Origin: Lysinibacillus xylanilyticus
GTDB lineage: Bacteria; Bacillota; Bacilli; Bacillales_A; Planococcaceae
Direction of reading: 5' to 3'
Assembly: GCF_001708185.1 (NCBI RefSeq)
Contig: NZ_MDDN01000001.1
Coordinates: forward strand, 186,001-250,000
Length of the DNA stretch: 64,000 bases
The notes beneath the pieces were generated by a model. That model did no database searches, was not told the origin of the DNA, and saw only the letters and a list, made by a program, of their open reading frames with translations. The position numbers and the translations under genes were made by a program. Shown here piece by piece: positions 35,569 through 46,292 of the stretch (its first letter is position 1; each line of letters begins with the position of its first letter).

Positions 35569-35805
35569 ACATCTCAACTCACAGTTCACATTAGATAGAT
35601 GAATTTTAACATAAAATCATATGTTTGGTCATGTATGGGTTACCTACGTAGTGTTCTTTTATACTAAAACTTATTCTAATGCTTTAAATTTTCAATTCTA
35701 CATTAGGCTAAGTTACAAACTATTGTAAAACTATAAAAGATGTTTTAGAATGATTTTGTTTCAATTTTTCACTTAAATAAGTGCATAGGAATATAGTATT
35801 TAAAA

Positions 35806-35866
35806 AGAAAAAACGAAACCGGTGAAAAGGAATTAAGCTGTTAATTCGTCACCTGTTTCATTTTTT
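35806..35866. terminator. Terminator at the end of the peptide cassette
   Basis: GAAAC..GGTGA..AATTAA pairs with TTAATT..TCACC..GTTTC to form a long hairpin with A and T runs on both sides. It closes the minus-strand cassette. Confidence 0.8.
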
Positions 35867-35883
35867 AAAAGAGATATTATAAA

Positions 35884-36420
35884 TTAAGAAGCATCTTCTA
35901 ATAATAATAACTTCTTAAGATGCTTAGGATTTGATATTTCTGTAGAAAAATTCACTAGACCGTTCTTATCTACAAAATAAAGGTAGGGTGTTTTTGTTAC
36001 TTTATAATTTTTAAATAAATCTGGTGCAACTATCAAACTGATTTTTTCATTATTTAAGAACATTTCTTCTTTTAATTGGTCTTGCATAATAATAATGGTA
36101 TATCTTGTAGAATCATTAAAGATTTCATTACTATTCTTCAAAACTTCTTGACATTGAGAACAAGTATTACTTAAAAATAATAAAGTCACTTCATTATCTC
36201 TTAAAATATCTTTTAAAACTATTCTAGACTTATTTTGATTTTCTGCTCTAAATAATGGCGCTAAGTCTCCCTGTGCAATGGTACCAAATTGAATACCTTT
36301 TATGGAATGAATTTCCGTTAAGAAATTCTTTATAAGTTTAATTAAACTATAAATTACATATGTTTCTACAAGTAAAACTACAGCAATTATTCCAATAATA
36401 AAATTAATAAACATTTTCAT
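35884..36420 (-). CDS. Membrane-anchored thioredoxin-like protein (MauD/TlpA-like, CSQC)
   Basis: This 178-residue protein has an N-terminal membrane segment (about residues 5-27) and a redoxin fold outside. The active site is CSQC (Cys87 and Cys90) in LLFLSNTCSQCQEV, with a cis-proline loop TKTPYLYFVD near residue 145. The arrangement resembles MauD, which works with MauE in methylamine dehydrogenase disulfide formation, and other TlpA-like proteins. It is last in the five-gene cassette, 43 bases after the MauE-like gene. Probable role: disulfide formation or isomerisation of the exported peptide. It is very AT-rich, like its neighbours. Confidence 0.78.
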   Translation of the reverse strand: MKMFINFIIGIIAVVLLVETYVIYSLIKLIKNFLTEIHSIKGIQFGTIAQGDLAPLFRAENQNKSRIVLKDILRDNEVTLLFLSNTCSQCQEVLKNSNEIFNDSTRYTIIIMQDQLKEEMFLNNEKISLIVAPDLFKNYKVTKTPYLYFVDKNGLVNFSTEISNPKHLKKLLLLEDAS

Positions 36421-36463
36421 CTTCCTCTCTTTTTAATATTGGTTTATATTTCGAATCTTGATT

Positions 36464-37000
36464 TTATTGTAATTTTTCAATAACGTTAATCATATTCTTT
36501 TTGAAATTTTCAAGATTTTTTATTGATAAGTTAATAAACCCTATTGAAGCTATGACAATAAAAATAATAATTAAATGAGCATTAGAAATATCTAATTTTT
36601 TATCATATAAACATAAGCTTATTAAAATAAAAATTACATTCCTAATGATGATCGAATATGATAGATTATCATTTTCTAAAATCCCACCACATCCACATGA
36701 AATATTTTTTCTCCCTTTCTTGATATTTATAAATATTACTACTGATACAGTGCTAAAAAAAATAGTGATTAAAAGTAAATTAATTAATGTAACACCCATT
36801 AATTTCAAAGATATAGCAATATAAAATTCTACGACTAATAAAAATACTAAAGCAATTTGAGCAAAATTTTTCTTAATACCAAAACTAGAAAAAGTTACAA
36901 TACTTTTCTTAAAATTAATTGCTTTATCCAAAGCAGAAGTACTAAAAATGAATATTAAAAAAATTAAAAGAAAATTACTTATCCAATATATAGAATACAA
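36464..37000 (-). CDS. MauE/DoxX-like redox membrane protein
   Basis: This 178-residue protein has about four to five membrane helices and the MauE features STSALDKAINF near residue 22 and a cytoplasm-side CGCGG motif (Cys102 and Cys104). MauE proteins are thought to shuttle electrons across the membrane for partner thioredoxin-like proteins, in a DsbB-like or DsbD-like way. Here the partner is the MauD-like protein just downstream. It is third from the end of the cassette and starts 33 bases after the ABC transporter gene. The family call is from motif and topology. Confidence 0.72.
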   Translation of the reverse strand: MYSIYWISNFLLIFLIFIFSTSALDKAINFKKSIVTFSSFGIKKNFAQIALVFLLVVEFYIAISLKLMGVTLINLLLITIFFSTVSVVIFINIKKGRKNISCGCGGILENDNLSYSIIIRNVIFILISLCLYDKKLDISNAHLIIIFIVIASIGFINLSIKNLENFKKNMINVIEKLQ

Positions 37001-37033
37001 AATTCTTCCCTCCTAATTATTCTTAAAAAGTTT

Positions 37034-38803
37034 TTAGTGAACTAAAAATTCAATATTATGAATGTTATTTTGGGCATTATACATTTCGTTATAATATCCT
37101 TTTTTATTTATTAACTCTTGATGAGTACCTTCTTCTATAATTACACCATTTTTTAAAACGATAATTCTATCTGCTAAGGCGGCTATTTTTAATCGATGAG
37201 TAACAAATAAAATTGAACCTTCGTAAATATTTAAAAGGTTATTCATAATTTCTTTTTCTGCAATCGGATCAAGCGCAGAAGACGGTTCATCCAACACAAT
37301 TAAATCACTATCACGATATAATGCTCTTGCTAATGCAATTTTTTGCCATTGACCTCCTGATAATTCATTTCCTCCCTCAAACTGTCGTCCCAATACCGAG
37401 TCATACTTATGAGGTAAATTCTCAACAAATTCTGTTAAGCCAACCTTATTGATAGCATTCTTGATGCGAGAATTATCGTAATTCTCATCATTTTCAAATG
37501 AAATATTTTCATTAACTGTGAGTTCATAATGAACAAAGTCTTGAAATAAAACAGAAATTTTTTCTTGATATTTCTTAATGTCCAAATCATTAAATTTGAT
37601 ATTGTTTATTTTTATATTTTCACTTTTGTTAGAATATAGGCCTAAAATGGTTTTCATTAAGGTTGTTTTGCCACTACCGTTCTGACCGACAATAGCAACC
37701 TTCTCGCCATAATTTATTTCCAAATTTATATTTTTTAATATATTTTCACTCATATTTGGATATTTAAAAGAAAGATCTTTAATTTTAATATTTTTTATTC
37801 TTAACTCTTCTTTATTTGAAACTGAATACTCCTTTTCTGATTTTCCTGGAGTTTTTACAAATTCTAGAAAATCTTTAATAAAGTAAGACGAATTTTTATA
37901 ATCTGAAAAATATCTAGTAGAAAGGCTTAAATTGCTTTGTAATAACTGAATTGCTTGTAAAGTTGCTAATACCCCCCCAGCTGTAGTACTTGTTTGTAAA
38001 TTCAAAATTACAATAATTCCAGAAAAAGCATATGTTAGAACTAGAATTATCTCTGATAAAAAAAGATATTTAGTTTTAATTTTAAGGAAATTTATTTCGG
38101 AGTCTGTATATTCATGAAAATAGTTATTCCACCTTTTCACAAAAAAATCAAAGCTATTAAAAATAATGGTTTCCTTTAACATATCTCGTTGGCTAAGTGT
38201 AAATGAGATATACTGTTCCTTCCTGTGTATAGGTATTAAACTTGACAAAAACAGGAAATTTTTTTTAGAGAATTTAAGCTGAATAACGAAATAAGGAATA
38301 ACCCCCAAAATTACTATTATTACAACTAAATTATCAATAATTGTTAGTAAAGCCAGTGAAGATATTAGACTTATTAAAGCACTAACAAGATAAGTCAAAG
38401 CATTAAAAGCATTATTCAAATTTTCTTTATTTGAAATGACTCTTTGGTAAGAATCATAAAATTCCGGGTTTTCAAAATTTAGAAATTCTGTTTGAGAGGT
38501 TTTAAAAAAAATTTCATTTGTAAGGATTTTTGTTACTTTATTTGTAAGTATTTGTTCATTTATTGCAAGCAAATGATTTATAGAATACGGGATAATTAAT
38601 AGTAAAATTTGAATCAAAAAAAGAATTATCAATTTTTTTAGTTCAGATTCCCCATTTATGTAATATAATATTTCGTTAATTAACAATTGGAAAAAGTATA
38701 TAGAAATTACTGGAGAAAAACCATTTATTATTTTTAAACTTATATTAAAAATAGATAATTTTAAACAGTTTTTAATATAAAAATTTATTATATAAAATAA
38801 CAT
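37034..38803 (-). CDS. ABC exporter (fused permease-ATPase) lacking a C39 peptidase
   Basis: This 589-residue protein has six membrane helices in its N-terminal 310 residues. The ATPase domain carries VGQNGSGKTTL (Walker A), a Q-loop in SVLFQDF, the LSGGQWQKIALARAL signature and LIVLDEPSSALDP (Walker B). It resembles exporters of lanthipeptides and other peptides. Unlike SunT or ComA it has no N-terminal C39 cysteine peptidase, so it cannot remove a double-glycine leader itself. The likely cargo is the 66-residue peptide encoded upstream. The start ATG is 219 bases past the peptide stop, after an attenuator hairpin. Confidence 0.87.
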   Translation of the reverse strand: MLFYIINFYIKNCLKLSIFNISLKIINGFSPVISIYFFQLLINEILYYINGESELKKLIILFLIQILLLIIPYSINHLLAINEQILTNKVTKILTNEIFFKTSQTEFLNFENPEFYDSYQRVISNKENLNNAFNALTYLVSALISLISSLALLTIIDNLVVIIVILGVIPYFVIQLKFSKKNFLFLSSLIPIHRKEQYISFTLSQRDMLKETIIFNSFDFFVKRWNNYFHEYTDSEINFLKIKTKYLFLSEIILVLTYAFSGIIVILNLQTSTTAGGVLATLQAIQLLQSNLSLSTRYFSDYKNSSYFIKDFLEFVKTPGKSEKEYSVSNKEELRIKNIKIKDLSFKYPNMSENILKNINLEINYGEKVAIVGQNGSGKTTLMKTILGLYSNKSENIKINNIKFNDLDIKKYQEKISVLFQDFVHYELTVNENISFENDENYDNSRIKNAINKVGLTEFVENLPHKYDSVLGRQFEGGNELSGGQWQKIALARALYRDSDLIVLDEPSSALDPIAEKEIMNNLLNIYEGSILFVTHRLKIAALADRIIVLKNGVIIEEGTHQELINKKGYYNEMYNAQNNIHNIEFLVH

Positions 38804-38880
38804 TTTTAAATTCTCCCTAATTATTATTTATTGTCACTATATTTGAATAAATTTATCCTTACGCTAAAAAATGAATGTTC

Positions 38881-38920
38881 TAAAAAACCGTAGACAAAAG
38901 AAAACTGTCTACGGTTTGTT
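38881..38920 (-). terminator. Attenuator between peptide and exporter genes
   Basis: On the minus strand CCGTAGACA pairs with TGTCTACGG and a run of six T follows. Most transcripts would end after the two upstream genes, with read-through giving the exporter and redox genes. Confidence 0.8.
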
Positions 38921-39022
38921 CGACATTTAAAGTCCAACCTTTATTATAAATTCTAATTCTACAATACTAGACTATTTTTATTTAATTTTTCACTTTATAT
39001 ATTAGACTATTTTTATATAGCT

Positions 39023-39223
39023 TTATTTAGTGCAGCCACAATTGCAAAGCTGTATATTACCATCGCATCCGACTGACGTGTTGTTCGCGTCAACCCATCG
39101 TCCTAAAGTACCTATCATCCCCTCTGTAGCACAACGTGCGTCACCTTGACACCATTTGTAAAATTTTTTGTTTGAACAATCATATCCTGCTGGTTGAATT
39201 AAATTATTTAGAAAATTACTCAT
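39023..39223 (-). CDS. Seven-cysteine peptide, candidate bacteriocin precursor
   Basis: The peptide is 66 residues long with Cys at 16, 25, 31, 53, 60, 62 and 64. The N-terminal 13 residues are Cys-free and hydrophobic/Asn-rich (MSNFLNNLIQPAG), perhaps a short leader. There is no Sec signal and no double-glycine site. The C-terminus is CNCGCTK. A very strong ribosome site (AAAAAGGAGGAAG) precedes the ATG, which overlaps the stop of the upstream CPYC gene (ATGA). An ABC exporter and two redox proteins follow. I do not recognise the family. It looks like a secreted disulfide-rich peptide, and antimicrobial function is inference. Confidence 0.72.
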   Translation of the reverse strand: MSNFLNNLIQPAGYDCSNKKFYKWCQGDARCATEGMIGTLGRWVDANNTSVGCDGNIQLCNCGCTK

Positions 39224-39792
39224 AATAATACTTCCTCCTTTTTTTTGATTGTAGAATTAGATTCATAAACTAAATTAAAAAAGCGATAAACCTCTGGTGT
39301 TTTTAATATTATTTCATTTATTTCATTTAAATAAATAAATGAAGGGGCAGTATCAATTGAATTTTCAGCAAGAAATTGCCTATCATATTTAAGAATATTG
39401 AAATTAAAATCATATAGTTTTAAAAAAGATTCTGAATTTTTATCAATATCTTCTACTAATACAAAAATATCTATATAGTTATTAACTTTACTATGGAATT
39501 CATTCCAATATATCTCAAAAATCTCTTTGCAGTACGGGCAATCTTTACTAATTAACAATAAAATCTTCGGTTTATACATATCTAATGTTTTTTCAAATTG
39601 ACTACTCATTATAAGCTTTTCAAATTGTACTGGTGTCATTAATTCATCATTTTTTACATTAACGTAATCAACTATTTTGTTTGTATTATTATTATTATTT
39701 ATTAATAAAAATATTTTTATTAATAATATTGTTAAACAACCTAACAATAAAATAATAGAAAGTTTTTCCGAGTATTCCAAATCAATGAACAC
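39220..39792 (-). CDS. Membrane-anchored CPYC thioredoxin-like protein
   Basis: This 190-residue protein has an N-terminal membrane helix (about residues 11-31), an Asn-rich spacer and a thioredoxin-like domain. Its CPYC active site is Cys85-Cys88 in LLISKDCPYCKEIF and a cis-proline follows in DTAPSFIYL (Pro151). CPYC is also the glutaredoxin motif. It starts with GTG at 39792 behind AAAGGTAGG and is the first gene of the cassette. Its last codons encode the peptide's ribosome site, so the two are translationally coupled. Probable role: thiol-disulfide exchange on the peptide during or after export. Confidence 0.77.
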   Translation of the reverse strand: MFIDLEYSEKLSIILLLGCLTILLIKIFLLINNNNNTNKIVDYVNVKNDELMTPVQFEKLIMSSQFEKTLDMYKPKILLLISKDCPYCKEIFEIYWNEFHSKVNNYIDIFVLVEDIDKNSESFLKLYDFNFNILKYDRQFLAENSIDTAPSFIYLNEINEIILKTPEVYRFFNLVYESNSTIKKKEEVLL

Positions 39793-39802
39793 CTACCTTT
39801 TT

Positions 39803-39851
39803 TTGTTAAAACTTATATTTACATTTAAATACAAGTTTTAACAAATGTCAA
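39803..39851 (-). promoter_or_regulatory. Cassette promoter overlapped by a 12+12 bp inverted repeat
   Basis: On the minus strand TTGACA (39846-39851) lies 17 bases from TTAAAT (39823-39828). The inverted repeat TTGTTAAAACTT / AAGTTTTAACAA (39803-39814 and 39833-39844) covers the spacer and the region downstream of the -10, a classical operator position. No regulator gene lies in the cassette. Confidence 0.6.
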
Positions 39852-39971
39852 CAATAAATATAAAAAAATTCCATTTTGATCTATAGATTGTGAATTTTAT
39901 AGAAATATCAGTACAAACTATGTAAGTGAAAGTGAAGAATTGTGTGATTTATCTGAATATTTAAAATGACA

Positions 39972-40008
39972 ATAAAAAAGATGCTGCTTATAAAATACAA
40001 ACAGCATC
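39972..40008 (-). terminator. Terminator of panBCD
   Basis: On the minus strand AAGATGCTG pairs with CAGCATCTT and TTTTT follows. Confidence 0.8.
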
Positions 40009-40132
40009 TTCTTCAAAATTGTCTATTAAAAAATTATATATTTCAAAAAAAAACACTATAAATCTTTAGATAATTAATGGAAATACACCTTGCTAATTAA
40101 TCTCTACATCCTCCTGTATAACTAATCTAAAA

Positions 40133-40516
40133 TTACATCACCGTTGCTTCTGGCTCATAGGATATCATTTCTTTAATCGTATTACCTTCTCCCATAATGG
40201 CAACCGTAGGCTTATGATCTTTTGCCTCTTCGTTGTCTACATACACATAAGAAATAATAATCACAATATCTCCACATTGTACTAGACGTGCTGCTGCACC
40301 GTTCACACAAATAACGCCTGATCCGCGCTCCCCTGCAATAATGTAGGTTTCAAAGCGTGCCCCATTGTTGTTATTGACGATATGCACCTTTTCATTCGGG
40401 AGCATACCTACTGCATCTAAAATATCCTCATCTATCGTTATCGATCCAACGTAATTTAAATCTGCTTGTGTCACTGTAGCACGGTGGATTTTACTATTCA
40501 TCATCATTCGCAACAT
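40133..40516 (-). CDS. panD: Aspartate 1-decarboxylase
   Basis: This 127-residue pyruvoyl enzyme begins [26 protein letters not shown]. The Gly-Ser bond in YVGS is the self-cleavage site that makes the pyruvoyl cofactor, and [17 protein letters not shown] and GDIVIIISY also fit. It makes beta-alanine from aspartate for pantothenate. It is last in panBCD, one base after panC. The uracil pathway elsewhere in this window is a second possible source of beta-alanine. Confidence 0.95.
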
Positions 40517-45989: not shown

Positions 45990-46292
45990 TTGGACTCTTA
46001 TTTGCGCTGCTAAAGTTTGTTGTTCCGCCGGTTGCACTCCCTTTTGCGCCGCTAAAGTCGGGTTTTGCGCCGCTAAAGTCGGGTTTTCCGCCGGTTGCAC
46101 TCCCTTTTGCGCCGCTAAAGTCGGAGGTTCCGCCGGTTGCACTCCCTTTTGCGCCGCTAAAGTCGGGTTTTCCGCCGCTTGTTCTCCCTTTTGCGCCGCT
46201 AAAAGCCGCTACTCCGCCGCTTGTTCTCCCTTTTGCGCCGCTTAAAGCCGCTACTCCGCCGGTTGCACTCCCTTTTGCGCCGCTAAAAGCTC
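45990..46292. repeat. Tandem array of 21/42-bp units
   Basis: Units such as TTTTGCGCCGCTAAAGTCGG alternate with TTTTCCGCCGGTTGCACTCC, giving a 21-base basic and 42-base compound period. The array is far richer in G+C than its surroundings. Three frames stay open through it because of the period, but none has a ribosome site or family features. It lies between the convergent DUF4097 and birA genes. Confidence 0.88.

Follow-up and report, generated by a model that had tools for sequence, protein, structure and literature searches.

What would a bacterium make with two thioredoxins, a MauE-like protein and an ATP-binding cassette (ABC) exporter encoded around one small cysteine-rich peptide? The question is raised by five genes, all on the minus strand at 35884-39792 of a 64,000-nucleotide stretch of Lysinibacillus xylanilyticus DNA (contig NZ_MDDN01000001.1, positions 186,001 to 250,000; the whole stretch is referred to below as the window), which are flanked by pantothenate genes and dinG and are transcribed in the order Trx1, peptide, exporter, MauE and Trx2. 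An earlier note on this DNA had given this order, from a CPYC thioredoxin through a seven-cysteine peptide, an exporter and MauE to a CSQC thioredoxin, and it was confirmed in every particular checked; the further claim of a redox and export cassette dedicated to a single cysteine-rich peptide was supported both by the gene content and by the co-occurrence of these genes across genomes. We propose that the cassette probably yields a secreted, disulfide-stapled peptide, most likely acting on competing bacteria, by means of the exporter and a thioredoxin/MauE relay.

The MauE protein is a member of PF07291 (E 1.2e-14, 55.2 bits against a cutoff of 27), and its C102 and C104 were invariant across 12 cassette MauE proteins. 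Both thioredoxins matched models of the thioredoxin/AhpC/MauD/ResA type below their cutoffs: the best Pfam match of Trx1, whose start codon is GTG39792 or an in-frame TTG close by, had an E of 0.016 and its library matches were all below the curated cutoffs, while Trx2 matched the MauD model TIGR02661 at E 1.7e-5 (24.3 bits, cutoff 188.6) and AhpC-TSA at E 1.1e-4. The exporter matched ABC_tran and generic P-loop models, the 25 Pfam families listed for it include no C39 domain, and the start of the peptide gene overlaps the stop of Trx1 by 4 nucleotides. As the earlier note had held, a scan of the five cassette proteins revealed no enzyme of the lanthipeptide (LanBCM) or radical SAM type, no glycosyltransferase, no C39 peptidase and nothing recognisable as an immunity protein. 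Methylamine dehydrogenase subunits and other mau genes were absent, by eye, among the open reading frames (ORFs) of at least 90 amino acids at 28-48 kb. PADLOC gave no match for the four cassette proteins submitted (the exporter was excluded), single-sequence structure prediction for Trx1 was poor (predicted local distance difference test, pLDDT, 46.4), and searching genome contigs with the exporter returned three distant ABC proteins, the Okeania one of which showed no MauE when its ORFs were read by eye.

On comparative grounds the peptide ORF is a genuine gene and no chance ORF, because three other genomes have homologues, 91%, 74% and about 50% identical, next to the same set of partner genes, and because seven columns of its alignment are invariant down to about 20% identity. 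The peptide has no hydrophobic helix or transmembrane-like segment by hydropathy, no double-glycine leader in its sequence, and no significant match in Pfam, NCBIfam, PHROGs, PADLOC, plasmids or the PDB (best PDB E 1.3). A first profile built from the four seven-cysteine peptides (that of the window and those of genomes G048, G037 and G454, the last a genome of another family) matched peptides at the cassette loci L134 (E 3.9e-6) and L070 (E 9.3e-4). When the profile was iterated over 6449 ORFs from the same loci and the window, 19 peptides were gathered at E 2.6e-14 or better, every one of them at most about 3 kb from a cassette MauE, and the remaining matches of the last round, including the cassette peptide of L120, stood at E 0.002 or worse. 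The positions C16, C25, C31, D45, C53, C62 and C64 are invariant in 18 of the 19 (in L122, L126 and L129 the last two cysteines are adjacent and were aligned across the gap). The seventh cysteine, C60, is exclusive to the seven-cysteine clade, and all four of its members carry a C-terminal CNCGC (CxCxC). Among 55 unique peptides, 35-90 amino acids long, four cysteines were found in 11, six in 27, eight in 12 and ten in 1, the number being even in 51 of the 55 and odd only in the seven-cysteine clade; the C-terminal residue is a cysteine in 35.

The earlier note had named homologues of the peptide lacking the exporter and redox genes as evidence that would speak against such a system. A family-profile search of 378 Bacilli genomes found 14 places in 8 genomes, 12 of them at cassettes already known and the other two at the far end of the G371 contig, where they would adjoin the array of that genome if the contig were circular; the profile was built from these same loci, and its informative part is the absence of matches elsewhere. 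A weak match in G182 (earlier profile, E 4.6e-4) was read as chance, having an unconvincing sequence and no cassette gene in the surrounding 12 kb. To the extent of these sequence searches there is no convincing orphan homologue of the peptide outside cassettes, and the exception as to partner genes is G202, which is without the exporter and is taken up below. Searches of NCBIfam with eight and ten peptides of relatives gave solely weak matches far under cutoff, the eight being without a Pfam match as well, and three relatives' peptides compared with plasmids found only the cassette-bearing Exiguobacterium and Priestia plasmids, with nothing for L067. Neither the peptide nor the MauE profile found a relative in viral contigs, and phages searched with one MauE gave none. 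A CART-like fold for the peptide family (PDB 1hy9, E 0.052) was taken as chance. On contig 25 of G371 (L114 44-602) a six-cysteine peptide array has five places, of which two are identical, divided between the two ends of the 135-kb contig, which is perhaps a circular plasmid.

Of 398 Bacilli genomes, 51 had a match to the MauE profile, and loci were examined from 35 of the 51, with 16 left out; 49 non-redundant MauE loci were retained, excluding L108 (on the same contig as L064), L072 and L147. In the co-occurrence check that the earlier note had called for, the exporter was present at 42 of the 49 (L034, L122, with two ORFs, and L118, cut at the contig start, being counted as present) and a cysteine-rich small ORF, selected partly by eye, adjoined 40 of these 42; L118, one of the two exporter loci without a peptide, starts at a contig end. 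By a tally from the loci of the 35 genomes, MauE, exporter and adjoining cysteine-rich peptide occur together in 28 of the 398. Locus counts are not independent because several loci are near-duplicates (L116/L119/L123/L124/L125/L130; L110/L111/L112; L139/L140; L065/L066). Under a fixed rule with no selection by eye, a sense-strand candidate was found at 34 of 49 loci and an antisense one at 12 of 49, five of the 12 being genuine divergent genes by eye, and the peptides which the rule missed or called antisense were included after visual reading, namely those of L120, L127 and L131 and the divergent ones of L070, L110-L112 and L134. A raw density test (candidate within 3.5 kb at 41 of 49 loci; 1.27 inside versus 0.61 outside per 7 kb) was set aside as too loose and replaced by this stranded rule. 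Multiple peptide copies per locus are common, with three or more in L114, L128, L132, L139 and L140. Cassettes of the same type were found on Exiguobacterium and Priestia plasmids and in other Bacilli, and four cassette-bearing plasmids are predicted to be mobilizable. The window cassette is one branch of a broad family, with the odd seventh cysteine as the unusual feature of its clade. A MauE match (32%) was also seen at NZ_CP030128.1 11748-12062, on a plasmid of the proteobacterium Indioceanicola profundi.

Within the genus the cassette bears the marks of lateral acquisition. Flank homology to ten cassette-free relatives ends at 35611-35632 and restarts at 40131-40143, and the G+C content, counted in 1-kb windows, is 22-29% in the cassette versus 36-44% in the flanks. 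The peptide was present in 3 of 32 genus genomes, that of the window included. At 14 of 30 panD loci dinG lies within 1.5 kb of panD with no cassette; of the other 16, the window's has the cassette and the rest (G048 included) show neither within 1.5 kb. When the window was compared with each of the other two carriers, synonymous divergence (dS) was 0.04-0.21 for the exporter, MauE and thioredoxin genes and 0.12-0.38 for the peptide, and 0.65-1.71 in the same comparisons for the flank genes panD, panC and dinG. Lateral acquisition was concluded because dS in the cassette (0.04-0.38) is so far from that in the flanks, and we infer that, once these species had split, the cassette moved between them, at one site. 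The peptide is the most diverged gene of the cassette, with a non-synonymous divergence (dN) of 0.18 against G037 (other genes 0.01-0.08) and 0.056 against G048 (other genes 0.007-0.048). In G037 (L035 10501-10700) a partial second panD (residues 61-127, with a stop) lies beyond the cassette, so that panD sequence is found on both sides, a possible trace of entry. The G048 copy looks to be decaying, with transposase-like ORFs recognised by eye beside the cassette (L034 2167-4404, 5960-7728) and a broken exporter frame; an insert of about 180 bp between its peptide and exporter (L034 5565-5745), not seen in the window or in L035, is perhaps a small mobile element.

The way in which the products may act together can be outlined from these parts. 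The ribosomally made peptide, with no Sec-like hydrophobic segment and no double-glycine leader, would be moved out by the peptidase-less ABC exporter, the exported form being either the whole peptide minus its methionine or a peptide with an N-terminal segment of about 12 residues still attached. Outside the cell Trx1, with its CPYC site, would insert or shuffle disulfides, and the MauD-like Trx2 (CSQC) together with MauE would provide a membrane electron path sustaining the relay. The six conserved cysteines would pair into three disulfides, and C60 may be left as a free thiol or be used for an intermolecular bond (dimer) or a CxCxC metal site. Secretion is assigned to the exporter and, tentatively, oxidation to Trx1 and electron carriage to MauE and Trx2 because of the known roles of MauD/MauE and of bacteriocin oxidoreductases; the cassette MauE presumably stands in the place of BdbB of the sublancin clusters.

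Table 1. Positions of the cassette genes, associated elements and island in the window, and of ATPase/permease pairs in related loci (coordinates of each locus)
Feature	Position	Strand	Description
Trx1	39792-39220	minus	190 amino acids; CPYC; single N-terminal hydrophobic helix; membrane-anchored, thioredoxin-like
Peptide	39223-39023	minus	66 amino acids; 7 cysteines; presumed product
ABC exporter	38803-37034	minus	589 amino acids; fused permease-ATPase without C39 peptidase domain
MauE	37000-36464	minus	178 amino acids; TTG start; membrane protein with CGCGG motif
Trx2	36420-35884	minus	178 amino acids; CSQC; single N-terminal helix; membrane-anchored MauD/ResA-like thioredoxin
Terminator-like hairpin, 13 bp	38885-38917	minus	33 nucleotides; between peptide gene and exporter
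Palindrome 20+4+20	39802-39845		44 nucleotides over the promoter region; possible operator
TTGACA	39846-39851	minus	putative -35 element for the operon; present in each of the three copies from the genus
AT-rich island	35614..40130		laterally acquired, between panD and dinG; from flank-homology breaks and G+C
ATPase + permease, L122	7246-12077		permease of about 1370-1395 amino acids
ATPase + permease, L126	7646-12500		permease of about 1370-1395 amino acids
ATPase + permease, L070	428-5232		permease of about 1370-1395 amino acids
ATPase + permease, L136	1096-5977		permease of about 1370-1395 amino acids

The hairpin which follows the peptide gene (Table 1) folds with a minimum free energy of -20.7 kcal/mol over 66 nucleotides (z -4.8) and is kept in both same-genus relatives, while G454 has its own. 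Terminator-like hairpins were found 3' of 15 of 44 peptides, compared to 14 of 173 other cassette genes and a mean of 0.95 of 44 in mononucleotide shuffles (the test took 44 of 57 peptides, mostly one per array); they fit the making of peptide in excess of its machinery, though most peptides are without one. The palindrome over the promoter region is not kept as a full palindrome in the two close relatives. At the N-terminus many peptides have a short amphipathic-looking stretch, MKYIPC or MKYVPC is the start of some Exiguobacterium peptides, of which two (L063, L114) are preceded by an exact AGGAGG, and 14 of 56 peptides have fewer than 10 residues before the first cysteine; starts as short as these therefore suggest export of the whole peptide, or of one from which a short segment is removed later. 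A universal leader was rejected on the same count of 14 in 56 and since a loose N-terminal pattern misses the window peptide; that pattern fits 13 of 41 segments (shuffle mean 2.3, maximum 8), a descriptive figure as it was written after viewing the peptides. Elsewhere in the window, downstream of the 45112-45945 gene, a short tandem repeat of CCGCCGGTTGCACTCCCTTTTGCGCCGCTAAAG-like units occupies 46010-46290.

In six loci (L063, L064, L070, L122, L126 and L136) an ATPase and a large permease are encoded beside the cassette. The permease is of the FtsX type by Pfam in L070 and L122 and by annotation in L063, is annotated as an ABC permease in L064, matches weak permease and aminopeptidase models in L126 and is a similar ORF by reading in L136; in L122 and L070 it bears a C-terminal M1 peptidase domain (Pfam). 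From their sequences such pairs could be candidates for an immunity or leader-trimming function in these relatives. The bacteriocin-like traits which we count in favour of a secreted antibacterial peptide are these neighbours, the multiple peptide copies, the mobilizable plasmids, the lateral acquisition, the divergence of the peptide and the hairpins, and on these traits an antibacterial function of the peptide is likely.

Other uses of a cysteine-rich product with the same machinery were weighed on this evidence. The CNCGC of all four seven-cysteine peptides and their odd cysteine number would suit a secreted metal-binding peptide for copper or zinc capture, in which the relay keeps or sets the thiols and CNCGC is the binding site, and the MauE of the L126 cassette weakly matches the HvfX model of copper-binding RiPP (ribosomally synthesised and post-translationally modified peptide) maturation (E 2.6e-4, 21.2 bits against a cutoff of 80). 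We consider this unlikely given the even cysteine numbers of all the other peptides of the 55, the lack of a metal transporter, metal regulator or DUF692-type enzyme among the five cassette proteins, and the fast divergence and multiple variants of the peptide, which are unexpected for a housekeeping chelator. It is similarly improbable that the peptide is a secreted signal (pheromone) with the cassette as its export system: HTH-TPR regulators, possibly peptide-responsive, do adjoin the cassettes of L068 (9909-11198) and L069 (9687-10964) and are transcribed away from them, but the window cassette has no regulator or sensor (other loci were without a systematic check), and multi-disulfide peptides are unusual as pheromones of Bacillota.

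The presence of MauE with a MauD-like thioredoxin also recalls the maturation of an enzyme subunit, as MauD and MauE act for the methylamine dehydrogenase beta subunit, but the cassette holds no other mau-type gene and no large-subunit partner was seen, and its products are small, very variable and often multi-copy with a dedicated exporter linked to them, all of which makes this explanation very improbable. There is, further, only a slight chance that the product is a real bacteriocin with a modification other than disulfides, such as a thioether or a thiol adduct formed at C60, for which either the redox proteins of the cassette or enzymes of the host would be responsible; the odd cysteine of all four clade members would accord with it, while the absence of a modifying enzyme from the cassette and the even number in 51 of the 55 family peptides tell against it.

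For the reading that we prefer, a disulfide-stapled and probably antibacterial peptide, several findings are unfavourable and are gathered here. The window cassette lacks a recognisable immunity gene in the scan of its five proteins, and the FtsX/M1 protein of L070 was unmatched at E 1e-5 or better in the genome of the window and likewise in G048. Two or more thioredoxins were found by profile search at only 25 of the 42 exporter loci. Four loci (L141 and L143-L145) have MauE and one thioredoxin with no exporter and no peptide, and are probably other MauE systems; the seven exporter-less loci also include L070 and L127 (with peptide) and L136 (which starts at a contig end). In G202 (L070) a peptide, MauE and one thioredoxin are found with no such exporter in the 14 kb read. 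An odd number of cysteines is ill-suited to a plain monomer with three disulfides. AlphaFold gave a poor model of the peptide (pLDDT 54.6, single sequence) with no solved fold matched, and no laterosporulin was among the PDB entries found at E 10 or better with the family profile of the window peptide.

Known systems are compared here from excerpts of the papers cited. Among candidates from genome mining, decRiPPter predicted three MauE-containing candidate RiPP families in Streptomyces with precursors of at least 8 cysteines, and the same excerpt has MauD and MauE as needed for methylamine dehydrogenase maturation, with a role of MauE in the disulfides of that enzyme speculated upon (PMC7794033). 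These families resemble the cassette in having MauE (in one family also MauD) beside a small cysteine-rich precursor in genomes without other mau orthologues, and in the precursor-modifying role proposed for it; they differ, by description and not by sequence comparison, in being Streptomyces families known from prediction only and with no linked exporter described in the excerpt, and their precursors have at least 8 cysteines where the window peptide has 7 and 13 of 55 family peptides have 8 or 10 (PMC7794033). No description of the Bacilli cassette family was found in the excerpts of open-licence PMC literature to which the search was limited. As regards the "candidate undescribed bacteriocin system" of the earlier note, the cassette is real, but it is a branch of a widespread family and not an isolated one, and MauE/MauD RiPP candidates had been predicted earlier in Streptomyces as excerpted (PMC7794033); bacteriocin activity is the part that we infer.

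By analogy, the nearest functional counterpart of the cassette product is laterosporulin. The laterosporulins are class IId defensin-like bacteriocins of Brevibacillus (PMC3293901, PMC6510442; PDB 4ozk, 6lwy), and as excerpted the peptide is a six-cysteine one of about 50 amino acids losing only its methionine, and its 4-kb region, where G+C is reduced, encodes an ABC transporter that has no protease domain. The products named at that locus are ABC transporter(s), a dehydrogenase, a regulator and a hypothetical protein, and no MauE or thioredoxin is named in those excerpts (PMC3293901, PMC6510442). A profile of the eight-cysteine peptides of L139 and L140 had laterosporulin3 as its sole PDB match at E 10 or better, a weak one (E 0.096); only 9 of 4000 shuffles ranked above the real laterosporulin, although its E in that set was 0.75. 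In the reverse search the L139/L140 peptides were 4 of the top 7 among 6449 ORFs at E 1.5-4, below a chance match at 0.066. The likeness of these peptides to laterosporulin is suggestive at the level of sequence. Three eight-cysteine leaderless peptides are encoded at each of these loci (L139 4506-5285, L140 4443-5217), with a common Y/W-R-x-V/I-Y-x-x-C-x-x-G stretch reminiscent of laterosporulin.

Dedicated oxidoreductases are also a feature of other bacteriocin systems, again as excerpted. The sublancin and glycocin clusters with BdbA/BdbB encode thiol-disulfide oxidoreductases with a disulfide-bonded bacteriocin, while sublancin carries an S-linked glucose and a 19-residue leader and the cassette has no glycosyltransferase (PMC5100339). 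TMcin shares a dedicated DsbA-like protein (TmcD), membrane-side disulfide formation and ABC secretion, but its precursor has a transmembrane helix and is served by an S2P-type protease, whereas a hydrophobic helix is absent from the window peptide and no protease is encoded in the cassette (PMC13252029). The actifensins are six-cysteine peptides with several ABC genes and, in some operons, multiple bacteriocin genes; unlike the cassette they have a 32-residue leader and a subtilisin-like protease gene, and no MauE or thioredoxin is named in the excerpt (PMC6989792).

A wider proposal, which we advance tentatively and at slightly less than even chances, is that disulfide-rich antibacterial peptides secreted by Bacilli make up a large class so far unrecognised, whose members would be exported whole or nearly so by peptidase-less ABC transporters and folded outside by a private thioredoxin/MauE relay. 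One machine would then serve many unrelated scaffolds (4, 6, 8 and 10 cysteines), perhaps including laterosporulin-like ones, with the seven-cysteine branch forming covalent dimers or a metal site through its extra cysteine; this odd-cysteine branch offers a clean test of dimerisation or metal binding. None of 19 family peptides scanned matched a Pfam or NCBIfam model at cutoff (ten of the 19 were compared with NCBIfam only), and no gene is annotated over the Exiguobacterium peptides in an annotation table that is incomplete. If the proposal is true, the combination of MauE, exporter and thioredoxin would be a genome-mining handle for disulfide-rich bacterial peptides that annotation can miss, and it would represent a Gram-positive route in which MauE is used to staple peptides around their export.

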